NCBI GenBank assembly: GCA_949358305.1
Contig: OX442322.1
Coordinates: forward strand, 4,526,001 to 4,590,000
Reading direction: 5' to 3'
DNA: 64,000 nt
Source: Strigamia acuminata
Taxonomy: Eukaryota > Arthropoda > Chilopoda > Geophilomorpha > Linotaeniidae
The notes under the pieces were generated by a model. The model saw only the letters and a program-made list of their open reading frames with translations. It made no database searches and was not told where the DNA came from. The position numbers and the translations under genes were made by a program. Every line of letters begins with the position of its first letter. Positions within the stretch are counted from its first letter, which is position 1. Of the stretch, positions 4,442-40,007 are shown one piece after another.

Positions 4442-5434
4442 CTATTTGACAATTACAAAAATATGCTCACAGAGCTTACCCAATCTGTTACGCGGCAACC
4501 ACTTTGTCATCAAATCCGCGATGTTCAATTCGCCAGGCACATGTTTAATACTAAACACGCCTTTTTCATACCAATCACGGAGAAAGTGCAAATTAACATC
4601 TATATGTTTATTTGCACGGTTTTCGATTTTATTTTTCGCATAGTTGATTGCCGGCATGCTGTCGGCGTAGACGCAAGGGACATTTTGGTCAAAACATAAG
4701 ATGATATCTGCCTCGTATAAACGTTCTAGCCATATCACTTCTCTCACGCCATCGACAACCGCGAGAAACTCGCTCTCCATAATACTCAGAGAAGTCATGG
4801 ATTGTTTTCTACAATTCCATGAAATCGGAACTCCTCCCAAATATACTATGTGACCACCAAAGCTTCTTCTACTGTCTTGGTCCAAAGCGAAGGACGCGTC
4901 CGTGTAGACTGTTAAATTGTTGTTTTTACAATTAGCTAAGTTGATAACATAATCGGGGGTATTCGCCAGATATCTCAACACTTGTATTAGCATTTTAACA
5001 TGCCTGTTAGAGTGGGTCTCATTGTATTGAGATAACACAATGACGCTGAAAAGGATATCTGGGCGCGTTCTGTTCACGATAAATAGTAAACTCCCTACTA
5101 GGAACCTGTATGGGAATGTTGAGTTAATTTGCTTGCCTGTTTGCACCTTCTGGATCATGGTGCCAACAGTGACTGGAATCTTAATTTTATGGCACGGATC
5201 AATGTCATATTTCTTAACTAACTTCGCAATATAACTCTTTTGATGTACTAAAATATCCCCATTTTTCCTCTCAAAATGAATCCCTAATAGTAGAGTCACC
5301 GGTCCAAGGTTGACAATTTCAAAGCCCTCTTGAATCCACTCGATGATACATTGTCCAACGAAAGCATCACGACTGAACAAAACAATGTCGTCCACGTAAA
5401 ACAAAAGGACGGCATCTGAGCCGTAATTATATAC
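4442..5434 (-). pseudogene. Element B pol, RT C-terminus and RNase H
   Basis: Minus-strand C-terminal copia pol. It contains the RT active-site LFYVDDIVLF, the IVNLGPVTLLLG motif, a SLLFIVNRTRPDILFS segment and an RNase H domain with TDASFALD, SIMESEFLAV and YADSMPAINY. The end HIFVIVK and stop at 4442 match other family members. The frame runs to 5434, where C inserted inside the codons before the YVDD motif; it resumes in register at 15466. This segment itself has no stop codon. Confidence 0.9.
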
Positions 5435-6042
5435 TGTTACGTGGTTTCTGGGCCTAATTAGAACCTCACGCAACGCTGTTTTATTTGGGGAATGAGTGAA
5501 CATGAGAAGGGAAAGAATGAGACTGTTTATTTTGTTTTAAATTCAAGTCTATTTTATTTGACCGGACAAACTAAGTTTGTTCGATCCTTAATAAATCTGG
5601 TTACATTAATTGGAATGCAATTCTGAATCATCAATTGGGCAAATCATTATTTTACACTTATTAAGTTTGAACAACCTTTATAAACCGTTTTTATGAAACA
5701 ACTGTGTGATAACTCAATTCGATATAAACTGTTGATTTATAGTCAGTCAGTCAGCCGCTCTCAGTATCGAGGCCACATCAGACTCTCTAGTAAAGGGCGG
5801 GTGTAATTAATAGTTACCTGTTGAAGTCTGGAGAGAGAAGAGAGCTCTGTCTGAAAGCGGGCGGTTTTATAGCAAATCTGCCATAACCCCCATTCACGAA
5901 TTAATCGGTCCAATCACATGACGATGACGGTTTCCAATCGTCAACGCCATCTGTGGCCGAAATTAAGCAACATCAAACTAATAATAACTCAAATTGCGTG
6001 TTACGAATCGCGCATTAATCGACACGGTTCGTACACGTGACA
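5435..6042 (-). repeat. 3' LTR of element C
   Basis: This 608-bp repeat starts TGTTACGTGG on the plus strand and ends ACGTGACA. It is identical to 14854-15461 except for two substitutions, near 5773 and 5957. ATAC (5431-5434) on its left is one copy of the target duplication. Confidence 0.97.
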
Positions 6043-6054
6043 ACTCCCTTTTTT
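6043..6054 (-). promoter_or_regulatory. Polypurine tract of element C
   Basis: AAAAAAGGGAGT on the minus strand abuts the 3' LTR directly, the expected place for the plus-strand primer. Confidence 0.8.
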
Positions 6055-6348
6055 GCTGTGATTTGGACCCCAAATTACAAATTTCGGTCCAGACAGGTCT
6101 CTTTTATAGTCGGACATTCTTAAGGAATGTTCGGTTGCCTTTTTTTTTTTTTTTTTTTTTCTCCTTTTTATAAGTCATCACTCAGCTGTTCCACAATTAT
6201 TTCTCAAAGTCAAAAGAAAATTTCACAATTTTTACAAGTACTCCCTTTTAGTTTAATCTATACAGATCTTTTGTATTTCTATAGTTTATTTTACATGTTC
6301 CTTGAAAAAAAATGAAAAGTACAAGAATAAATCAAAACAAAATCAAAC
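6055..6348 (-). other. 3' untranslated region of element C
   Basis: Non-coding DNA between the ORF3 stop and the polypurine tract. It contains an uninterrupted run of about 22 T from about 6140, that is, poly-A on the element's sense strand. No gene was seen. Confidence 0.6.
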
Positions 6349-7791
6349 TTAAATTTCTTCAAAAGGTTCGAATTTTCCGTGCTGGATCTCGTACAGGATT
6401 CGAACTCGCAATTCCGAGCCTTCTGCCAACTTCATCATGTCTCGGCACTCAACGTATCTACGAGCAAAATGTAAAATCATGGGCCTGCAGCTGTCCCCAT
6501 CGAGCTGGGCTGCTTTTGGTGGTTCCCATGGCTCGTATCTCGGTATTTCGTATCCAGAACCTATTAAATTAAGTTTAATATTACTCCACCACGTGAAATG
6601 ATCCACGTGTGGCTTTCCCGACGAGTCGTAGAACCCCACACACGGCGGAGAACGCTCCATATCGAACACATATATGATCCAGTGCTCTTCCGCCGGTATG
6701 GGGAAGAACCAGATCTTGTGCTGCTTTGTTGGTTGGTCAAGTTGGTCACGGAACCATCGCCATGTATTGGGTTTATCCTCGCCTTTCATTAATTTTGCCA
6801 CAGTTGCCACTAGAAACGCATAAACTATTGGGTATCGCTTCATCAACATGCCCAAATAATAGTCAACCACCGTGTCGTGAACCCAAGATATGCGGCCTGG
6901 CATCAATGCTCCTAAAGAGATCATTTCTCTAGGGCCAACCGCGATGTATGGTCGCACTTCCGACACGTACATTCGCTCATCCGGGTGATGTTGAAAATAT
7001 TCCGGCCATTTCTCCAGGGCTTCCATCGCTTTTTCTGCAGAGATCTTAACTTCATAGTCGACTGGTGGTAACGGTAGGTCGATCCGTGGGTCGTAGAGCG
7101 CTGTTCGCTTCCCTAATTTCTTTGCGCGATCCACTTTGTTACGGATCTTCGCTTCTTCCAGGATCAGAACCTGTGCTTCTTGCTTATAAGCTTCGAAGAT
7201 CGGTCTTCCTTCCGCGCCCTTTGGTTGAAGAGGAATAACCGCCGCCGCTAGATTTCTCCGTTCAACGTTAATCTCCAGCAAACGACGGAAATTTCTCCTC
7301 ACCGCTCGCTGAGATTGCTCTCGAATAATTTTCAAACCCCTTGGTGTTAATTTCCTTTTCTCGATACCTTCAGTTTTACGACGCAAGGTTCTATTTCGCT
7401 TACGTCGGTCCTGACGGTTTTTCTTTTTGATATACTTCGGGTCATTTGGATCTAGCATCATTGGTGGCTGGCTATGACCTTTCTTACATCTGTTGGTAAA
7501 TGGGCGCTCGAACTGGACTATGTCTTCCAATTTAACCGTTTTACTGGTACCCGCTGTTGGATTGTTCAGGTCTATACTCCTGTCGTACCAGTTCCACATG
7601 GCCATCGGGTCGATCTCTACTTCCGCTTGATCAGGCATTACATCGTTTAAGTCTGTTGACTCTTCAGTTGGTTCAATCGGCTCAACTTCAATTGGTTCGG
7701 TTGGTTCGTATTCTGGTATTTCAGACTCGTCACTCTCATCTGAGCTCGAATGGATGTCCATCCTGTCGAATTTGCTCGCCATATTTTCCAT
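6349..7791 (-). CDS. Element C ORF3: Ulp1/SENP-like (C48) cysteine protease protein
   Basis: First ATG at 7791 (an open frame extends to 7821); about 480 residues. The acidic, Glu/Pro-rich N-terminus is followed by a strongly basic stretch (KKKNRQDRRKRNRTLRRK) that could be a nuclear signal. The C-terminal third has the Ulp1 pattern, numbered from the codon at 7821: W313-V-H-D-T-V-V-D-Y-Y-L (compare W-L-N-D-x-V-I-N-F-Y-L), F-F-P-I-P before His380-Trp, Asp399 in FYDSS, Gln439, and Cys445 in QLDGDSCRPM. The His/Asp/Gln/Cys set is complete, although Gly after Cys is replaced by Arg. Known C48 enzymes cleave SUMO or related isopeptide bonds; the substrate here is unknown. It lies between pol and the 3' LTR, where env sits in errantiviruses, and no signal peptide or membrane segment was seen. 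Translation probably needs a spliced mRNA. The frame is intact. Confidence 0.85.
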   Translation of the reverse strand: MENMASKFDRMDIHSSSDESDESEIPEYEPTEPIEVEPIEPTEESTDLNDVMPDQAEVEIDPMAMWNWYDRSIDLNNPTAGTSKTVKLEDIVQFERPFTNRCKKGHSQPPMMLDPNDPKYIKKKNRQDRRKRNRTLRRKTEGIEKRKLTPRGLKIIREQSQRAVRRNFRRLLEINVERRNLAAAVIPLQPKGAEGRPIFEAYKQEAQVLILEEAKIRNKVDRAKKLGKRTALYDPRIDLPLPPVDYEVKISAEKAMEALEKWPEYFQHHPDERMYVSEVRPYIAVGPREMISLGALMPGRISWVHDTVVDYYLGMLMKRYPIVYAFLVATVAKLMKGEDKPNTWRWFRDQLDQPTKQHKIWFFPIPAEEHWIIYVFDMERSPPCVGFYDSSGKPHVDHFTWWSNIKLNLIGSGYEIPRYEPWEPPKAAQLDGDSCRPMILHFARRYVECRDMMKLAEGSELRVRILYEIQHGKFEPFEEI

Positions 7792-8712
7792 TTGACGGTC
7801 CTTCGCACTGTCACTAAGCACTGAACGATTCCAACCTACTTATGAAGAAAATAAAACAAAACAAAATAAAATTAAATAATATCAACTATATTATGCCTAA
7901 TAAATAAAATTATTCCTATTGTAAATAAATATTCCATAATAAACTTCAAACTTCTAACAATTCCTAAAAGAATTTCAAATTAATTAAATTTTTCTTTCAT
8001 TTTTCAAGTTTTCTTTAAAAAATCATTAATATTTTCAAAAACAAACATCAACTCATTCCATTTTACTTATTTACAATAAATTACTCTTATCAAAATTCAA
8101 TCAAATTTCCATCGAAACATATTTACATTTATCAAACTTATTCAATTTTAACAAAATTCGCAATGAATTCGCTTATCGCGTCCCGAGTCATTCGTGTTGT
8201 TAGAACTAAATTTTCCAAATTTTCTCTTTGAAATTTATTTTTAATTTACTCTACTATGCTATTAAATTCAGTATTTTATAATTTTAAAACTTTACCTAAA
8301 TTATTAAGCCTAATTAAAATTCAATGCAGATGAACGAAGATCGCGTTGGGTCCTTTCGCGTCCCCGCCATTCGCACTCTCATTACTTCTTATTTATGCTT
8401 TAAAATCATTTTATTTCACACTAATGTGTCATTAAATTTTACTCCTAATTATTTAAAATGTCAGTTAAAAATATTTTTCACCTAATTAAAATTCTAACAC
8501 GAATGAACGAACATGGCGATTAGTTTCACTTTACGAAAATCGCTCAAAAAACGTTTAAAACCTCAAAGTTCATCTCTAAAATCACTTAAAATTATCAATA
8601 TCATTCGTACAAACCTTTTGAAACACAATTTTATACACAAAATATAAATAAATAGACAAAAATGATTTTGTTTCCGGGTCACACTATGAGTTCGTGTTCA
8701 CCGTAGCAAGAA
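7792..8712 (-). other. AT-rich spacer between pol and ORF3 of element C
   Basis: About 900 bases without a supported gene. On the minus strand, pyrimidine-rich DNA ending in AG just upstream of ORF3 (around 7830-7860) could be a splice acceptor. Similar segments recur at about 8310-8360 and 8490-8520, each with AATTAAAATTC followed by GATGAACGAA or GAATGAACGAA, so the spacer may have grown by old duplication. Confidence 0.5.
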
Positions 8713-11700
8713 TCAGTAGCAATGGCGATAGTCTTTTCGTTTCTGCGGTCTGAGTCTGCGCGACCGGAAATCGTCTTTTTGTGTATTTGCGCCATCTTGT
8801 GGCGGATTTTTAAGTTGATTTTCATTAGTTCCTATCAAAGGCTGTGGTTCAAATAGCGATTTTAATGAGATTTGTTCTGTATCGTCTATATAACGTTCTC
8901 TTGGTTTGATTTTCATTATTTCGACTGGTTTTTCGATGTTTTCTTCTACACTTTGTCCTTTTCTACTGATTTTCTTTACTTTATCAGCAAATTTCACTTT
9001 CTTTTCTGGTAATTCTTTCAAAACTTCGTCTATTTCTGGTTCAACTCGTTCTTTATACGGTTTTAATCTTTCTACATTCACTATATCACTTTTCTTTCTT
9101 GTTGAATTGATTATTTCATAATCATTCGGTGCAGTTCTTCGCACAATTTCATATGGGCCGGAAAATTGCGGTAAAAGCTTCTCTGACAAGCCAACTTTTC
9201 TGTTGATGGTTTTCAGATACACCAATTCACCTGGTTCAAACTCTTTGTTGACTCTATCTTCATCAAACCTTTTCTTGCTTTTTGCTGATTGCTTTTCAAG
9301 CCTCTCATTTGCAATTTTCCTGGCCGCTCGAATGAATTTCGCTGTTCTCAAAGTAAACTCTTTCTGTGGCAAATCCAAATTTACATCTACTGTCAAATCC
9401 ACGTCATATCCTCGTAAAAGATAATGTGGTGTATAACCTGTTGTTTCATGAACTCCCGTGTTATACGAAAACAGAAGAAATGGAAGAAATTCGTCCCAAT
9501 CAGTATGTTCTTCATTAACGTAACTTTGCAACATTTTTGCGAATGTCGCGTTAAATCTCTCAGTTAATCCGTTTGTTCTTGGATGATATCCTGACGTAGT
9601 TTTATGCAAACTTTTAAACATATTTGAGACTTCCTCAACCATTTTATTCCTGTATTCTGTTCCACGGTCACTTAAGATCTCTCTTGGACTGCCTTCTTTC
9701 AGAATTACTTCATAAAGCAATGTTTTTGCTGCTTCTAACGCTGTAGCTGCTGCTGCTGGTCTAGCTATTGCATTTCTCGAAAGATAATCGGTCACAACAA
9801 AAACATGTTTATTTCCAAGACGTGATAATGGAAATGGTCCAAGTGTATCTATTCCAATTCGCTCAAAAGGCTTCGAAACTGTTGACCATGGCTGCATTAG
9901 TCCTTTCGCTGGTGTAGTCATCGTTTTTGCTTTCGCGCAACTTTGGCAGGACAAGACGTAATTTCTAACGTCCCTATAAATTCTTGTCCAAAAGAATCGT
10001 GTTCTTATTCGTTTCCATGTTTTTGCCAAACCTAAATGAGCTCCTAGTAATCCATCATGCATTTCGTATAATACATCTGTCTGAAGTTGTTTTGGAACTA
10101 CTAGTAACAAATCTTCCATGTTCAGGGAACTGTTTAGTTTTTTCTTCCTGAACAACGTTTTGTTTTGAAGAACGAACTGCTTTAGAGGTCGTCTTCTTTT
10201 TCTTGGAAGTTGCTCTTGGTTTTCTAGCGCTGTTATGAGGTCCAGAAGTTTAGAATCCTTCCTCTGCTCAGCAGGGAGGTCCAAATTTTCCAAGAGAAGC
10301 GAAGGCAATTTTTGGATGTCTTCTTCACTTAACTCTTCCTGGATCCTACTCAGGGCATCAGCATCTGTGTGCTTCTTGCCACTTTTATGAAATATTTCAA
10401 AATCATACTCAGCTAGTTGCAGCGCCCACCTGGCCAGCCGTCCATTTGGATTTCGGACTCCTTTCAGCCATTGGAGGGCAGAATGGTCGGTAATAATTTG
10501 GAATTTCTGTCCATATAAGTACGGTCTAAACTTTTCAATAGCAAAAATGATTGCTAACATTTCCCTTTCAGTTGCAGTGTAATTCATTTCTGCTGTGCTC
10601 ATCATACGACTTGCATAAGCGATGGCACGCTCTTGATTGTTGACTTTTTGCTTCAAAATAGCTCCTAATCCATAAGCACTTGCATCGCATGAAATCATGA
10701 AAAGCTGAGTAAAATCTGGATGCGCTAACACCGGCACTGTTATTAATGCTGTTCGAAGCGTGTGGAATGCTTTTTCATGGGGAGGTCCCCAATCAAACTT
10801 TTCATCCTTTTTGGTTAAATTCACTAGAGGTTTGGAAATGTCCGCAAAACCTTTAATAAATTTCCGGTAATACAAGCATAATCCTAAAAAACCACGTAGT
10901 TGTTTAACGTTCACAGGAATTGGAAACTTAGCTACTGAATCCAGATTCCTGGGATCCGGTGAAATACCTTCAGCATCAACCACATGTCCGAGATATCGTA
11001 TGGTGTGTGTCGCAAACGTACATTTACTCAGTTTGACTTTTAAATTCGCTGCTCTTAGTTTTTCGAAAACTGCCTCCAAATCGACGAGGTGCTGGTCGAA
11101 AGTCTTTGAAAACACTATCAAATCGTCAAGATATGCTATGCATACTTTTCCCAGGAGGTTACCAAGTACCTTATTCATCAATTTTTGAAAGGCGGCTGGG
11201 CTATTACATAATCCCATTCCTAGGACATTAAACTCGTAATGTCCGCTTGAAGTAGTGAACGCTGTTTTCTCCCGATCTTGTTCATCTATTTCGACTTGGT
11301 GATATCCCTGAATAAGATCCATCATTGAAAAATACTTTGCACCCGCTAGCTGATCTAGGGTGTCATCTATACGCGGTAAGGGATACACCATTTTCTTTGT
11401 CACTGCATTCAAACGTCTCCAATCTACACAAAATCTCCATTTGCCATCTCTCTTCTTGATGAGTAGTACTGGTGCACTCCATGGGCTCTCGGATTCTCTA
11501 ATGACTCCTTGCTCAAGTAACTTCTTTGTTTCAGCATCCTCGATTTCTTTTTCCTTAATTGATCGTCTATAAGGTTGTAAATGGATTGGAGGAGAATCTC
11601 CAGTATCTATTCGATGCCTTATCGTATGAGCTCTGCCTAAATCATTATCAGTCTTCGCAAATCTATCTGAATTTTTCTTCAACAATTGTAGCATCAGCTC

Positions 11701-12033
11701 TTGTTGTGATGGCGTCATATTGTCATTTGCCATAGACGTGCTAAAGTCAAAATGATCATCTCTTTTTTCATTAAGCACGCCCGACTCAATTACATAAAAA
11801 GCTTTTGCAATTGCTGAATTACGTCCTAAATAGATTGTCTTTTTAGTCGGATTTGCAACTCGCAGAACTCCTTCACCTTTTCTGAATTTGGTCAATGTTT
11901 TGCAGCAAATCACTCCAAATCGATCTACTACTCCACTAAGTGGTTCAATAAATAATTCATCATCTACTTTCTTTGCAATTTTTATTGGTACTATACATTC
12001 ATGTAAAGCTGGTATAGTAATAGGTTTCAAAAC
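8713..12033 (-). CDS. pol: Element C pol: reverse transcriptase, RNase H and integrase
   Basis: About 1,106 residues of Ty3/gypsy Pol. RT motifs run from WRFCVDWRRLN through FSMMDLIQGYHQ to the catalytic AYLDDLIVF (YLDD at about residues 300-303 from codon 12030). RNase H has SCDASAYGLGAIL, ATEREMLA and TDHSALQWL. Integrase has an HHCC finger (HDGLLGAH...CQSCAK), then the DDE core: GIDTLGPFPL, ILSDRGTEY and NGLTERFN. No stop or frameshift occurs up to the TAA end at 8713. It is in the same frame as the upstream protease, separated by one TGA at 12034-12036. All catalytic residues are present, so the enzyme could be functional if that stop is bypassed. Confidence 0.95.
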   Translation of the reverse strand, partial: VLKPITIPALHECIVPIKIAKKVDDELFIEPLSGVVDRFGVICCKTLTKFRKGEGVLRVANPTKKTIYLGRNSAIAKAFYVIESGVLNEKRDDHFDFSTSMANDNMTPSQQELMLQLLKKNSDRFAKTDNDLGRAHTIRHRIDTGDSPPIHLQPYRRSIKEKEIEDAETKKLLEQGVIRESESPWSAPVLLIKKRDGKWRFCVDWRRLNAVTKKMVYPLPRIDDTLDQLAGAKYFSMMDLIQGYHQVEIDEQDREKTAFTTSSGHYEFNVLGMGLCNSPAAFQKLMNKVLGNLLGKVCIAYLDDLIVFSKTFDQHLVDLEAVFEKLRAANLKVKLSKCTFATHTIRYLGHVVDAEGISPDPRNLDSVAKFPIPVNVKQLRGFLGLCLYYRKFIKGFADISKPLVNLTKKDEKFDWGPPHEKAFHTLRTALITVPVLAHPDFTQLFMISCDASAYGLGAILKQKVNNQERAIAYASRMMSTAEMNYTATEREMLAIIFAIEKFRPYLYGQKFQIITDHSALQWLKGVRNPNGRLARWALQLAEYDFEIFHKSGKKHTDADALSRIQEELSEEDIQKLPSLLLENLDLPAEQRKDSKLLDLITALENQEQLPRKRRRPLKQFVLQNKTLFRKKKLNSSLNMEDLLLVVPKQLQTDVLYEMHDGLLGAHLGLAKTWKRIRTRFFWTRIYRDVRNYVLSCQSCAKAKTMTTPAKGLMQPWSTVSKPFERIGIDTLGPFPLSRLGNKHVFVVTDYLSRNAIARPAAAATALEAAKTLLYEVILKEGSPREILSDRGTEYRNKMVEEVSNMFKSLHKTTSGYHPRTNGLTERFNATFAKMLQSYVNEEHTDWDEFLPFLLFSYNTGVHETTGYTPHYLLRGYDVDLTVDVNLDLPQKEFTLRTAKFIRAARKIANERLEKQSAKSKKRFDEDRVNKEFEPGELVYLKTINRKVGLSEKLLPQFSGPYEIVRRTAPNDYEIINSTRKKSDIVNVERLKPYKERVEPEIDEVLKELPEKKVKFADKVKKISRKGQSVEENIEKPVEIMKIKPRERYIDDTEQISLKSLFEPQPLIGTNENQLKNPPQDGANTQKDDFRSRRLRPQKRKDYRHCY

Positions 12034-12522
12034 TCAAGCTATGTAATTTTGATCGGTATGATTTTTAGACATTGGGAAAATTTCTTGTTGTTCATCTTTT
12101 GGGCCTACAAAGATCTTCTGGTGGTCGTAATCAAGTTTACACCTCGCAGATGTCAAAAAGCTATGTCCAAGCAATAAATGGTGGCCAAATCCGTTGACGA
12201 TCAGCACTTCAATGGTGTGTTGCTGTTGTCCAACGTCAATAGTGATCTTGGTTTTTCCTTCTGGGATTATTATTGAACCATCTACAACTCTAAGTCGAAT
12301 GTATGGACATGGTTGATATTTGAGCTGCAATGTTCTTACCAAATCTTCATTAATAATATTACGATAACCTCCAGAATCCAAGACACCTGTTATCTCCATA
12401 CCATTCACCACTACCGGAATTTGCAAAAGTTCATCTGTGGCGTTCAACTCAATAATTTCTAATTTCCTTTTTCTTCTTCTCTTCTTTTTGTTATTTCGTC
12501 TTTGTGGCCATTCTAGTTTCCC
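12034..12522 (-). CDS. pro: Element C protease, reached from gag by -1 frameshift
   Basis: This frame is open from the GGGAAAC slip site through a lysine/arginine-rich linker into a retropepsin-like domain with GVLDSGGYRNII (catalytic D-S-G) and HHLLLGHSFL, the flap-distal hydrophobic-Gly motif. It ends at TGA 12034-12036. No ATG lies at its head, which fits synthesis only as a Gag-Pro fusion. The next codons continue in the same frame into pol, so TGA is either a leaky stop or a single nonsense mutation; CGA to TGA would be one transition. Confidence 0.85.
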   Translation of the reverse strand, partial: GKLEWPQRRNNKKKRRRKRKLEIIELNATDELLQIPVVVNGMEITGVLDSGGYRNIINEDLVRTLQLKYQPCPYIRLRVVDGSIIIPEGKTKITIDVGQQQHTIEVLIVNGFGHHLLLGHSFLTSARCKLDYDHQKIFVGPKDEQQEIFPMSKNHTDQNYIA

Positions 12523-13634
12523 GATGCATTAGGTGGTCCACCACGTGGGGCTCCTCGATTTCCTCGGCCTCGGTAATTTTCAATAAAATTTTTACCTTTA
12601 TAGTTTGGATTTTTAGGATGACCTTGGTTATTTGGATTTCCCTGTTGTCTTTGACCTTGTGGTGGGTTCCTTTGCTGTTGTGGCGGATTCCATTGCTGTT
12701 GTGGATATTGTTGTTGGAATCCTTGACCTGAATTATTCCACTGATCATTCCAATTACCTCTGATTTGACCTCTATTGTTCCATCCTCTACCTTGGTTCCA
12801 ATTATTGTTATTATTCCACCATCCTCGTTGTTGTCCAGGTCGTCCTCTAAAGTTACCTCTATTGTAGAACTGACCCTGGTTTGGATGTGGCGTATACCAT
12901 TGATTTTGGTAGAAGACTGGCGTAACCTCTGCATATTGGACATCCCCAAACTGCTGCTGTTGTCTTAGCACTTTGACCTCTGCTAACAACTCGTCTTTTG
13001 TTTTATTGACGTCGCTTGGTTCTACCGAGCAACTCGGTGTCACCTTGCTAGGAGTATCAACAGCTTTTTGCAGTAGGGTTAATAAAACTTCTGCAGGGTC
13101 CTCATTGAATGCATGAGCTTCCAATAACCCAAGTTGAGATGTTAGTTGATCCAACGTCTTTGGAAAGTTGACTACTAATTTATCTCTAGTCGCCTTTTTA
13201 AGTGTCTGAAACACATGAAATATCTTTTGCTCTTCAGTGAATGATGGTCTTGCAAAAGAACATTCTTTTAGTATCTTCTGCATGTGTTCCAAAGCTGTTC
13301 CATCCTTGTGCTGCATTGCTTGTAACTTCGACAGTATTGTTGTTATTTGTCGTCTAAACTTAGTCTTCAACGCATCTTTCCATTGTGTCCATGTTCTAGT
13401 CGGATACAGTGGAAGTTGATCTAAATACCATGATGATGCGGAAGATTTCAGCACAATTGACAGATGTTTAATACGTTCAGTATCATCGGTGATCGTATCT
13501 TCATATCCGATCAGCCATGTGTCAATATTTCCTGTAGCCGGATCAAAATCAACTGGATTTCTTCTATTGACCACTAAGTTTTGTAACACTGTCTGTATTG
13601 CTACCAGTTCTGATGATGGCGAAGCATTAGCCAT
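12513..13634 (-). CDS. gag: Element C gag
   Basis: ATG at 13634 (MANASPSSE) is the first in-frame methionine. The frame is open further upstream to about 14024 with plausible acidic and lysine-rich coding, so initiation may be at a non-AUG codon or an exon may be missing. The core resembles the retrotransposon Gag family (GNIDTWLIGYEDTI, then SSASSWYLDQLP, WKDALKTKFRRQ and similar). The C-terminal 130 residues or so form an extreme Gln/Asn/Gly/Arg-rich tail with GRGW and RGG-type repeats and no CCHC zinc knuckle, so RNA binding is probably through the RGG tail. It ends at TAG (12513-12515), directly after the slip site. Confidence 0.88.
   Translation of the reverse strand: MANASPSSELVAIQTVLQNLVVNRRNPVDFDPATGNIDTWLIGYEDTITDDTERIKHLSIVLKSSASSWYLDQLPLYPTRTWTQWKDALKTKFRRQITTILSKLQAMQHKDGTALEHMQKILKECSFARPSFTEEQKIFHVFQTLKKATRDKLVVNFPKTLDQLTSQLGLLEAHAFNEDPAEVLLTLLQKAVDTPSKVTPSCSVEPSDVNKTKDELLAEVKVLRQQQQFGDVQYAEVTPVFYQNQWYTPHPNQGQFYNRGNFRGRPGQQRGWWNNNNNWNQGRGWNNRGQIRGNWNDQWNNSGQGFQQQYPQQQWNPPQQQRNPPQGQRQQGNPNNQGHPKNPNYKGKNFIENYRGRGNRGAPRGGPPNASGN
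12516..12522 (-). promoter_or_regulatory. -1 ribosomal frameshift site GGGAAAC of element C
   Basis: On the minus strand the gag frame reads G_GGA_AAC then TAG. This is a perfect X_XXY_YYZ heptamer immediately before the gag stop. Slipping back one base gives GGG AAA CTA GAA and an open frame through the protease. Confidence 0.88.
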
Positions 13635-14839
13635 TTTAGTAGAAGATTGTTCAATTTTTATTTCCACTTTTGGTTGAATTGGTTCCTCGTGCTCTTCAAT
13701 ATCTTTGGCTGCGTCCTCAAATACGTCGTCCAAATTTACCTGTACCCTTTCCAAAAGATCGCCTAATTCTGATTGTTCCTTAGGCAATAACCAATTATAC
13801 ACTTCTGGATCTATTAATCTTTTATTACGCTGCTCAGGAGTTTCAAGATCTTCCCTTTTTTGTGTTTTTTGTTCACCTTTGGATTTTGATCTATACTTCC
13901 GACCAGTTACTTTATCATCCAGTAACTCTTTGGGTGTATCAGGTTCTCCTGGTTCCTTTTTGGAAAACAGATAATCTGCTACAAACTCTGGCAGTTTATA
14001 ACGTTTGGATTCCGCAATGATTAATCAATTAAACTGAAGACACAATCCTTTGTAGCACTCAGACTCAGTTTATCCAATTGCAAATAACACTATAACACTT
14101 TTAACTCTCTGAAAACAAGTCAATGATTAAACAATTCAAACAATTCAATCTTCACAATCAATTCTCAAAACTTTCAAAACAATTAAATTTTCACGATCAT
14201 AATTTACAAAAATTTATCAAACAATTTCATTTCCACAGTCATAATTCAAAATTATCAAAAACTATTATTAGTAAACATTCAAGAAAACTTTTTATTAGTA
14301 ACACTTTACAAAAATATCCTGAAACTCAAAATTATTCATTAGCAAATTCAAATAATAATTCTTTATTAATATACACTTTTATCAAAAACAGTATAACTGA
14401 ATTCTTTATTTAATTATATAAACAACACCAATTAAATTCAATTCACAATCAAACTTCACATCAGTCAACACTTAACGCAAATTCATCCAATTAAATATTC
14501 AAGAACTTTATCTTATTTTATTTTTAAACTTTGCCAATTTTCAACTCAATTAGCTATATTTACTTCATTAAGAATGAGTCACTTCTATCATTCCTATCTC
14601 TATCAGCAATGATTCACTCATATTCAAATTAAGTTGGGCTTTTTCAAAATTTTATATGATTTTAAAGCAATTTTCAAACTAAATTTCGCCAATTTTCTCG
14701 TTTTAATTCTAATTTTCAACTATTTTACTCTAATTTTTACAATTTTAAGAATTTTAACTCTAATAAATTTTGATTTTTCATGTTTTACACTCTAATTTCG
14801 GAATTTTATTCTAATTTTTATGCGGTGTGGGGAAAACTC
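13635..14839 (-). other. Leader region of element C
   Basis: Between primer site and gag ATG. Bases 13635-14024 form an open frame continuous with gag (for example YKLPEFVADYLFSKKEPG) and may be coding. From 14025 to 14839 the DNA is AT-rich and holds no supported gene. Confidence 0.6.
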
Positions 14840-14851
14840 GCACCTCCACCA
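14840..14851 (-). promoter_or_regulatory. Primer-binding site of element C (probably tRNA-Ala)
   Basis: TGGTGGAGGTGC on the minus strand begins two bases from the 5' LTR. It is complementary to the GCACCTCCA-CCA 3' end of animal tRNA-Ala. The match is only 12 bases, so the tRNA assignment is tentative. Confidence 0.65.
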
Positions 14852-14853
14852 TT

Positions 14854-15461
14854 TGTTACGTGGTTTCTGGGCCTAATTAGAACCTCACGCAACGCTGTTT
14901 TATTTGGGGAATGAGTGAACATGAGAAGGGAAAGAATGAGACTGTTTATTTTGTTTTAAATTCAAGTCTATTTTATTTGACCGGACAAACTAAGTTTGTT
15001 CGATCCTTAATAAATCTGGTTACATTAATTGGAATGCAATTCTGAATCATCAATTGGGCAAATCATTATTTTACACTTATTAAGTTTGAACAACCTTTAT
15101 AAACCGTTTTTATGAAACAACTGTGTGATAACTCAATTCGATATAAACTGTTGATTTATAGTCAGTCAGTCAGCCGCTCTCAGTATCGAGGCAACATCAG
15201 ACTCTCTAGTAAAGGGCGGGTGTAATTAATAGTTACCTGTTGAAGTCTGGAGAGAGAAGAGAGCTCTGTCTGAAAGCGGGCGGTTTTATAGCAAATCTGC
15301 CATAACCCCCATTCACGAATTAATCGGTCCAATCACATGACGATGACGGTTTCCAATCGTCAACGCCATCTGTGGCTGAAATTAAGCAACATCAAACTAA
15401 TAATAACTCAAATTGCGTGTTACGAATCGCGCATTAATCGACACGGTTCGTACACGTGACA
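14854..15461 (-). repeat. 5' LTR of element C
   Basis: 608 bp, 606 of them identical to 5435-6042. It is followed by ATAC (15462-15465), the second copy of the target duplication, after which B pol resumes. Confidence 0.97.
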
Positions 15462-15465
15462 ATAC

Positions 15466-36636: not shown

Positions 36637-37267
36637 GCAACGGGACAATGTAGTGGAAACGCTTGTCGCCGACGCCGCTTTAGAATTAAACGAAGCGGCA
36701 GCCCTACGAAGGGTCCTACTTAAATATGAGGGAATCCTGTCGAAAAAACCGGGCCGAACAAATAGGGCTATTCACGAAATTAAATTGACGGATAATAAAC
36801 CTATACGAGTTGCGTATAAGGGAATGAACCCGCAAAAACGTGAAATAGTGCAAAAAATGTGCAAAGAAATGCTGGACAACGGTATTGTCTCCGAGGCCCA
36901 AGGAGAATACGCAACGCGAGTTGTGCTCGTGATGCGCCCGGGCTCGGATCCGCGTCTATGCATCGATTACCGCCCTTTAAACGCGATGACAAAGATAGAT
37001 CCCATACAGATGCTGTCGATCGAATCCATTTTGAGAGAGCTTAGCCCCTTTTCTTGGGTTACGACGATGGATCTGTCAAAGGGATACTGGCAGGTAGAAA
37101 TGAGGCCAGAGGATAAACTAAAGACAGCATTTTACTCGCCAATTGGACGGTTGATGTTCAACATCATGCCGTTTGGTTTAGTGAATGCTCCCAGTACCTT
37201 TCAGAGACTAATCGAAAGCGTATTGGGTGATATCCTACATCAGTTTTTTGTGGGCATACCTAGATGA
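36637..37267 (+). pseudogene. pol: Element D reverse transcriptase, N-terminal part
   Basis: Continues the protease frame after H. Gypsy RT motifs: LRRVLLKYEGILSKKPGRTN, the EMLDNGIV segment, DPRLCIDYRPLN, WVTTMDLSKGYWQVEM and MPFGLVNAPSTFQRLI. The frame ends at 37267 because a T6 run (37244-37249) has one T too many relative to the expected F-L-W-A-Y-L-D-D. The catalytic YLDD is therefore thrown out of frame. Confidence 0.92.
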
Positions 37268-40007
37268 CATAGTTATTGCCTCAAAAACATTCGAAGAGCA
37301 CATTGAGCACATCGACCAAATGCTCACCCGGCTGGCGAAAGCTGGGTTACACGTTCATCAAGGAAAAAGCAAGTTTTGCCGTAAAGAATTAGCTTTCCTG
37401 GGTTATTGCATTGGTGACAACGGGCTAGCAATCGGCCCCGAGAAAATTGATGCGATTCATCGTTTTCCACCCCCCGAAGATGTTAAGGGAGTACAGAGGT
37501 TTATGGGGATGATAACCTTCTTCGACAGACTCTTACCGGGTCTTGCTGAGGTTGCAGCTCCAATAACCAACCTCCTGAAAACTGAAATGGAGTTCGAGTG
37601 GACAAACGATTGTGACATCGCATTTAATGCGATAAAGAGGATGTTGACTGAAGTTGGAGTCATGCCTCTACCTGACTTGAACCGGCCGTTCATATTACAT
37701 ACGGACGCCAGCAGAGTTGGGTTGGGAGCCGCGTTGCTCCAAACTCACGTGCGCGACGGAGTCGAACAAGACCTGCCGTGCATGTTTATAAGTCGCAAAC
37801 TCCAAGGCGCTGAAAAAAATTACAACGCCACAGAGTTGGAGTGTTTGGCAGTTGTGTGGGCCATAAGGAAATTCAGAGATTATCTCGAATACACCAAATT
37901 TGTGGTTCACACCGACCATCAAGCCTTACAGTGGCTGATGAAGTTGAAGGAGCCAGCTGGTCGACTAGCCAGATGGCAGTTGGAACTGATGGCATGCGAC
38001 TTGACCATTCAATACAAGCCCGGCAAATATAACGTCGTGGCTGACGCTCTGTCACGGGCACCAGTGTCAGATCCTATCGACGCTGACGATGATGGCGAAG
38101 ATGATTCCCGCATTATTTACTGCCCAACGAGTTGTCATCGTTGGGATTTAAGGAAAATGAATGAAATTCCTACCGTGTCTTCAGCAGATGTAAAATTCTG
38201 CGGATTCTGGACGCGGTTATACCAACCATCTGCTGACAATTACCCGGATGCAAAGAAGGAATTTAAGCTAGAGCGGAGAATAAATGACCCGCTTCTAAGC
38301 GCCTTCCACACTCATGTCGGCAAGCAAATACAAAGCAATCCCTCGACGAGGGAGGAAATAATTGTGCAACAAAAATTAGACAAAAAATGTCAGGACAGAG
38401 CTAGATTCGTACTGACAGGAAAATATCCGCCCAACCTGACCAGAAGGCAGAAGCGTCATTATGCACACGAATCCATAGATTATCTATTGGATGACGGCCT
38501 TTTGGTGAAGCATCACCCAAATCACCAAGATGACTTGAGTGAATCAGACACCGCAGTAAAGGTAGTAATACCTGCTTCCTTAATCGGTCGCATACTGTGG
38601 TTGTTACACGGGCACCCGCTTGCAAGCCATGCGGGAGTAAGCAGAACACTCTATCGTGCTACACAGCATTTTCACTGGACAGGGATGAAAAAAGATATCG
38701 CTCTTTTTGTCCACCAATGTCAGCGATGTCAAGCGTGTAAGCCGAGGAGTAAATCACCATTCGAAACTATTTTCTTAGGGCCTTACGCGCCTTTTGACTG
38801 TTTAAGTGTCGATGTGATGGGCCCAAAACCCGTTACGGGAAATAAAAACGCGTACATTATCGTAATAATGGACGTAGCGACTCGTTGGCCCGAGTTGTAC
38901 GCCGTCGCTAGACCTTCAGCAGATAAAATCGTTGAATGTATCTACGACGTGGCGTTACGTTATGGATTTCCACGTAAAATAATATCCGATAATGGACCCC
39001 AATTTATCTCGAAAATTTGGGATAAATTTTGTGAGAAGTTCGGTATTGTAGCGTCACACACATCGACCTATAATCCCAGAACAAATCCCGTTGAGCGACT
39101 CAACAGGGACATTAAATATGCATTAAGTATATTCACTGACATCCACAATAGGTGGGATGAATACTTGAGGGAGATCGCGTTCAGCATACGAACAACAGTC
39201 TCGAGGACGAGAGATTTTTCTCCGGCCTACCTCAATTTCGCCCGAGAGCTACGTGTGCCTTGGGACCCACGAGTGGCAGAGTCGGTAAATGTGGTGGACC
39301 CTGAGAAACCACATGAGTACGTGTATAAATTGGAGCAAACTATTTCCAGCACGTACAAGCATATGATGGCGCACATTTTTAACTTGCGCGACCGCATTTT
39401 ACAAGATAAAAGCGGTAGAAAATTCGTGAATTTCGAGATCAATGATTTAGTGTGGAAAGATACCCACATCCTCTCAAATGCAACGAGAGGAATCACCGCC
39501 AGCTTAGCCGACAAGAGAGACGGTCCGTACGTGATCATCGACAAGCATGGCGGTAACGCATATAAATTGCGAAAGCTCGAGGATAATACCGAGCATAAAT
39601 CGATCCAAGTACGAGAATTAACTCCGTACGTTCCGGAATTCCCGCAAGAAATGTGGGCCAAGGGCCAAGTCAAGTCCAAAACTGACGGCCAAATCGTCGA
39701 TATGTTCGCTGGCGAGTCGGAAAAATCACTGCCAAGCGACAACGAGGAGTATTTCGACGCCCCTTCACCTCCGGCAAACGAGATCGTTGAATCCGTTCCG
39801 GATCCAATTTTGGTCGGGGGGGGGGGGGAAACAGGAGAAACTCCTGAAACAAACACAAAAAACACGGATAAAAAAGAAAACAATGATGAAGAGGTACAGC
39901 CATTAAAAACAAAAAATAATGAGCAATTACCTGGTCCGTCTCATCACCTGCGACCCCGAAAAAATAATCCATTTATAATAGGCAACAAGATCGTAGGGAG
40001 GACGTAG
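37250..40007 (+). pseudogene. pol: Element D RT C-terminus, RNase H and integrase
   Basis: Frame shifted by the T6 run. It begins with WAYLDDIVIASKTFEEH (the RT catalytic motif), then RNase H (LHTDASRVGLGAALLQ, ATELECLAVVWA, HTDHQALQW). An integrase follows with HHCC finger (HGHPLASHAG...CQRCQACK) and DDE residues in SVDVMGPKP, IISDNGPQF and NPVERLN. The C-terminal tail is acidic with a G-run low-complexity point near 39818. TAG ends it at 40007. About 920 codons open. Repairing one base would restore it, so inactivation is slight. Confidence 0.93.

Follow-up and report, generated by a model that had tools for sequence, protein, structure and literature searches.

The 64-kb window, i.e., the whole stretch of DNA that was analyzed, harbors an LTR retrotransposon of 10,027 bp on the minus strand (15461..5435). 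The element is bounded by a 5′ LTR (14854..15461) and a 3′ LTR (5435..6042), both on the minus strand, of 608 bp each (sense TGTCAC...GTAACA) and differing from each other by two mismatches; the length of 609 bp given by BLAST arises because one flanking base agrees too. The target-site duplication ATAC is present at both outer edges (5431..5434 and 15462..15465). Inspection by eye revealed a candidate primer-binding site starting with TGG at 14840..14851 (minus strand), 2 nt inside the 5′ LTR, and the polypurine tract AAAAAAGGGAG at 6044..6054 (minus strand), adjoining the 3′ LTR. A tRNA scan of the window found no tRNA gene with which the primer-binding site could be compared, and an Rfam scan of the window at gathering cut-offs returned no match. 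By eye, the element is nested in a copia element, the pol frames of which lie on either side of it.

The gag frame (12516..14024, minus strand, 503 codons) encodes a Ty3-capsid-like protein with a Gly/Gln/Asn-rich tail, and its match to PF19259 (E 4.6e-6, 26.6 bits) falls under the curated cut-off of 29.1. The first ATG of this frame is codon 131. The 130 codons ahead of it (13634-14024) have a GC3 of 0.25-0.33, like the remaining gag. An aspartic protease in another frame overlaps the end of gag (12037..12528, minus strand) and matches retropepsin-like Pfam families (PF13975, E 2.6e-9); an in-frame TGA (12034..12036, minus strand) separates it from the pol frame (8716..12033, minus strand), which encodes reverse transcriptase, RNase H, and integrase and has Ty3 Gag-Pol as its top PDB match (E 4.4e-118). 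With an LTR pair and target-site duplication, the domain order PR-RT-RH-IN, and Ty3 as the nearest solved relative, the carrier is, by its sequence, a Ty3/gypsy (Metaviridae) LTR retrotransposon, in agreement with the first-pass annotation. The element is young. Its earlier description as nearly pristine is borne out by the two LTR differences, but not by the in-frame TGA or by the lack of a gag ATG before codon 131. The TGA may be a readthrough signal or a defect, and together with the late gag ATG, it may reflect either defects of this single copy or an expression strategy. The AT-rich leader between the 5′ LTR and gag contains a tandem repeat with a 42-bp period (14135-14248, 2.8 copies), and a comparison of the leader with the spacer of the element showed weak AT-rich similarity alone (best E 1.7e-4 over 50 nt).

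The part of the window from 18380 to 64000 is occupied by a stack of young LTR elements, many of them copia by eye. Repeat pairs were observed at 23261-23782/36110-36631 and 24823-25362/31440-31979 (99.8% each), 41480-42323/46883-47726 (99.5%), 48981-49289/55491-55799 (98.7%), and 18567-19148/63419-64000 (98.5%), the last of which extends to the window end. A second gypsy-like pol, at 36752-39629, is 29.9-38.4% identical to the first in three segments.

A Third Open Reading Frame in the Envelope Position

An intact ORF had been claimed between pol and the 3′ LTR with its strand unstated; it is present on the minus strand, in the sense orientation of the element, between the integrase end of pol and the polypurine tract. 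This frame, ORF3, comprises 480 codons when read from its ATG at 7791 (6352..7791, stop 6351-6349) and encodes a protein with an acidic N-terminus, a basic middle region, and a Ulp1/SENP-like C-terminus. The frame is open from 7839, giving 496 codons. In comparison, the longest frame obtained in 300 dinucleotide shuffles of 6043-8712, read in six frames, was 211 codons, and 300 shuffles of the GC-richer ORF3 region alone reached 268 codons; an ORF3 arising by chance is therefore unlikely. Its non-coding flanks are very AT-rich (GC 0.249 and 0.291). The acidic and then strongly basic N-terminal half reported earlier is evident from the residue counts, with 24 D+E against 3 K+R in residues 1-80 and 28 K+R against 10 D+E in residues 111-200. 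Seven short matches to SIM-like hydrophobic cores were also seen in ORF3 and were set aside as evidence.

Third ORFs in this position are envelope genes in insect errantiviruses, and the distinctness of ORF3 from an envelope, as proposed previously, was supported by its hydropathy. The maximum Kyte-Doolittle mean over 19 residues was 1.32, below what is expected of the transmembrane segment of an errantivirus envelope, and an envelope function is unlikely since no strongly hydrophobic stretch is present. Immediately upstream of ORF3, a U-rich tract (7836..7880, minus strand) contains two candidate 3′ splice sites, one ending in AAG at 7839 and one (TAG|G) ending at 7836. When the 714 AGs of the element were ranked by the pyrimidine content upstream, these candidates took ranks 2 and 5, and rank 1 fell after ORF3. 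The TAG|G site looks better, yet another AG sits just upstream of it. A search for a splice donor with a short pattern list over 13600-15461 gave no match. ORF3 would probably be translated from a spliced subgenomic RNA through the 3′ splice site just upstream, as the position and rank of these candidates suggest.

Homology of ORF3 to Ulp1/SENP (C48) Proteases

Comparison of whole ORF3 with PDB sequences by phmmer yielded 17 matches, the top 12 of which were Ulp1/SENP proteases, while the other five were ribosomal eS6 proteins matched through the basic stretch. The Ulp1/SENP-like region corresponds to the C-terminal 216 residues (residues 265-480; 6352..6999, minus strand), delimited by PDB matches and profile alignment. 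When this region was used alone, all 13 PDB matches at E<=10 were Ulp1/SENP (best E 3.6e-4), whereas the reversed domain, serving as a control, gave two unrelated matches, neither of them a protease (best E 0.27). A C48 profile built on Ulp1, SENP1, and part of SENP2 scored ORF3 at 24.7 bits, ahead of all other ORFs of the window (368 in total) and of 5000 shuffles, the best of which reached 8.7 bits. None of the remaining 367 ORFs of at least 60 residues scored above 4.4 bits, so no second domain of this kind is apparent in window frames of that size at this sensitivity.

The first-pass annotation had proposed a comparison with PF02902 and SENP. The SENP sequences in the PDB were matched, but Pfam assigned ORF3 to no family, neither PF02902 nor envelope families, with matches reported up to E 10, although the HMMER filters discard most of those above about E 0.1. 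As PF02902 was not matched, the domain is termed C48-like here. NCBIfam and PHROGs likewise gave no meaningful match to ORF3, their best E-values being 0.075 and 0.11, respectively. Single-sequence AlphaFold prediction, run on the sequence alone and not on an alignment, gave a mean pLDDT of 39 for whole ORF3 and 35 for its last 225 residues; neither model provided a confident fold, and both were set aside. The PDB and profile matches make it highly probable that the C-terminal region of ORF3 is homologous to the C48 proteases, as had been suggested.

The key residues of the family were found in ORF3 in the expected order. Trp303 and Asp306 of the WLND motif, His370, Trp371, and Asp389 fall on matching Ulp1/SENP positions. 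His370 (6682..6684, minus strand), which precedes Trp371, was matched to the His of the HW in Ulp1, and Asp389 (6625..6627, minus strand) aligned with the Asp of the Ulp1 YVDS. The presumed oxyanion-hole residue Gln429 (6505..6507, minus strand) and the presumed nucleophile Cys435 (6487..6489, minus strand) were assigned from the MAFFT row. The residues listed previously are thus present, but their earlier numbers (His380, Asp399, Gln439, and Cys445) count from a GTG at 7821 and not from the ATG. The His-Asp, Asp-Gln, and Gln-Cys distances (19, 40, and 6) are close to those of Ulp1 (17, 43, and 6), in line with the C48-like spacing noted before; His, Asp, Gln, and Cys follow one another as in the family, with the MAFFT row and the spacing of the motif as the basis for Gln and Cys. 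In 20,000 tail shuffles, Gln-x5-Cys occurred in the expected stretch in 1.4%, and in 0.1% when Gly was also required. Three observations count against the Gln and Cys assignments: an Arg comes directly after the Cys, the local profile alignment (hhalign) reaches the Asp at 88% probability and ends ahead of the Gln and Cys, and a global hhalign of the domain against a small C48 alignment, which was not relied on, threads the tail differently. The two Trp residues of these motifs would clamp the di-glycine terminus of SUMO. ORF3 is on balance predicted to be an active protease of ubiquitin-like modifiers, and its most likely identity is that of a nuclear enzyme acting on SUMO or a related modifier.

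Origin and Proposed Function of ORF3

The GC3 of ORF3 (0.496) differs from that of gag (0.306) and pol (0.316), and its codon usage correlates with that of pol at r of about 0.30, compared to 0.82 for gag. In 5000 resamplings of ORF3 with gag-pol codon choice, GC3 reached a maximum of 0.402 and r never fell under 0.62. Codon usage so unlike that of gag-pol suggests acquisition, and ORF3 was probably acquired later than gag-pol. Other elements of the window frequently have a GC3 of about 0.5 (the second gypsy pol, for instance, has 0.491), so ORF3 stands out against its carrier but not against the window; the best codon-usage match among 17 other frames had an r of 0.45, and hence no donor is indicated. 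The shifted frames of ORF3 correlated with pol at r of 0.22 and 0.41 and the antisense frames at up to 0.33. Codon usage as a sign of gag-pol-like translation was rejected since the shifted frames match pol equally well. Two T-rich repeats of 27 nt flank ORF3 at its 3′ edge (6326..6352) and 5′ edge (7850..7876) on the minus strand and are identical at 23 of 27 positions, a level reached in 0 of 1000 shuffles with boundaries picked after the fact. In addition, an A21 tract (sense; 6140..6160, minus strand) lies between ORF3 and the 3′ LTR. These features are compatible with the capture of an intronless cDNA, but as simple sequence they prove nothing.

It is proposed that the gypsy element acquired a C48 gene from a cellular or transposon-borne source, probably as an intronless cDNA. 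The basic middle region of the encoded protein would bring it to the nucleus and to nucleic acid, where nuclear proteins would be freed of SUMO or a related modifier by the C-terminal domain. Such deconjugation would weaken the transcriptional silencing that depends on SUMO and acts on the element, or would let the element's own proteins escape modification. For the reading as a whole, in which an acquired protease gene of the C48 kind is kept in the envelope position, expressed from spliced RNA, and used for nuclear deconjugation, the arguments for and against appear evenly poised. Anti-silencing as the main benefit of ORF3 is put forward tentatively, as a possibility somewhat less probable than the reading itself, and a link to piRNA-SUMO silencing is assumed here. 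A more ambitious version, in which an animal gypsy lineage has swapped its envelope for a captured SUMO-type protease that is translated from spliced RNA and removes SUMO from proteins of chromatin or of the piRNA pathway where the element has inserted, is unlikely on the present evidence.

To our knowledge, the counter-measures of animal retrotransposons to SUMO-dependent, piRNA-guided silencing are largely unknown. With an element that carries a candidate deSUMOylating enzyme of its own, the counter-silencing question could be tested directly by means of a single protein and a single point mutant. Such an element would also show the reuse of the envelope position for an intracellular enzyme.

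The evidence on ORF3 comes from one copy of the element. A scan of viral contigs with ORF3, its C-terminal domain, and the pol, reverse transcriptase, and integrase pieces found 0 relatives. Among genome contigs scanned with ORF3, 14 stretches fitted the pattern and one locus passed; this 24-residue match on an alphaproteobacterial MAG contig (L001) was rejected as chance, the pol and gag of the element having no meaningful match there. A single known copy would fit ORF3 being a passenger, i.e., a host or transposon C48 gene transduced by template switching into one small subfamily or into this element alone and conferring no benefit. The GC3 and codon usage that set ORF3 apart from gag-pol would fit such an event, and the A21 tract and edge repeats could be scars of RNA capture, though they are simple sequence and may have arisen by chance. 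However, ORF3 lies in the sense orientation exactly between pol and the polypurine tract, as for an expressed third gene, it runs for 480 codons without a stop, and a good 3′ splice-site candidate directly precedes it. The passenger explanation is accordingly considered possible but doubtful.

A somewhat smaller chance is given to ORF3 being a C48 relative without catalytic activity, which would bind a ubiquitin-like modifier or simply serve as an accessory nucleic-acid-binding protein. Gly after the nucleophile Cys is conserved widely in C48, and both Ulp1 and SENP1 have Gly there, whereas Cys435 of ORF3 is followed by Arg436. This substitution, the missing Pfam match, and the very basic middle region would suit a protein devoid of protease activity. 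Against it, the His, Asp, Gln, and Cys along with the Trp residues of WLND and HW are retained despite strong divergence, which would be surprising after an ancient loss of catalysis. A role in maturing the Gag or other ORF products of the element, like that of adenain in adenovirus, is highly improbable: adenain-type enzymes share the fold and are present in virus-like mobile elements, but the element already encodes an aspartic protease frame, the PDB matches are Ulp1/SENP with none named adenain or adenovirus protease, and, of the WLND motif of Ulp1/SENP, ORF3 retains both Trp and Asp. Most improbable is the disfavored view of ORF3 as an ordinary envelope-like or orphan frame with a chance likeness to proteases, which would account for the modest E-values and the lack of a curated family match but is opposed by the specific PDB matches, the reversed and shuffled controls, and the absence of a strongly hydrophobic stretch.

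Comparison with Known Systems

The interpretation of ORF3 as an acquired C48-like protease invites comparison with cellular enzymes and with other mobile elements. ORF3 resembles Ulp1 and SENP1/2/5 (C48, PF02902) in having the W..D motif, His-Trp, Asp, and Gln-x5-Cys in the same order. It differs from them in being missed by the Pfam model, in carrying Arg in place of Gly, in being encoded by a retrotransposon, and in its acidic and basic N-terminal half. The arrangement had been thought undescribed, and a limited search of openly licensed papers in PubMed Central found no LTR retrotransposon with a Ulp1/SENP gene; no third ORF bearing a protease appeared in the consulted portions of PMC12440569 and PMC7264820. 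C48 genes are already known in several DNA transposons, and their presence in an LTR retrotransposon is apparently new within the literature covered. If confirmed, ORF3 would extend the recurrent pairing of Ulp1 proteases with transposons (Mutator-like, Ginger1, and Crypton) to LTR retrotransposons.

With respect to gene order, a parallel is found in insect errantiviruses, which likewise have a third ORF after pol and ahead of the 3′ LTR; in errantiviruses, it is expressed from a spliced RNA. According to the available part of the source (PMC12992720), the errantivirus ORF encodes an envelope with a signal peptide and a transmembrane domain, unlike ORF3, which has no strongly hydrophobic stretch. 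With respect to the protease, Ginger1 is similar in joining a C-terminal Ulp1 domain to the gypsy-type integrase lineage; as far as described in the sections consulted (PMC2836005), it is a DNA transposon with terminal inverted repeats whose Ulp1 domain lies inside the transposase and not in a separate ORF. The CryptonF and CryptonS elements of oomycetes are likewise mobile elements with a C48 peptidase domain but, from the accessible portion of their description (PMC3212892), are tyrosine-recombinase DNA transposons.

In terms of proposed function, ORF3 can be likened to the Mutator-like Vandal transposons of plants, in which a Ulp1 domain is present in some of the anti-silencing VANC genes, as indicated in the part of PMC13317346 available. 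The portion of a Vandal anti-silencing study that could be consulted (PMC5735166) mentions ULP and SUMO 0 times. The Kaonashi (KIU) Ulp1 genes resemble ORF3 in placing a transposon-borne Ulp1 domain in an accessory gene, one tied in their case to element-specific anti-silencing; they differ, again within the available text (PMC13317346), in residing in a plant DNA transposon with the Ulp1 domain located within the VANC gene, whereas ORF3 resides in an LTR retrotransposon. If the proposed function holds true, ORF3 would be an anti-silencing enzyme encoded by a retrotransposon and would correspond, in animals, to the Vandal anti-silencing genes of plants that carry a Ulp1 domain.
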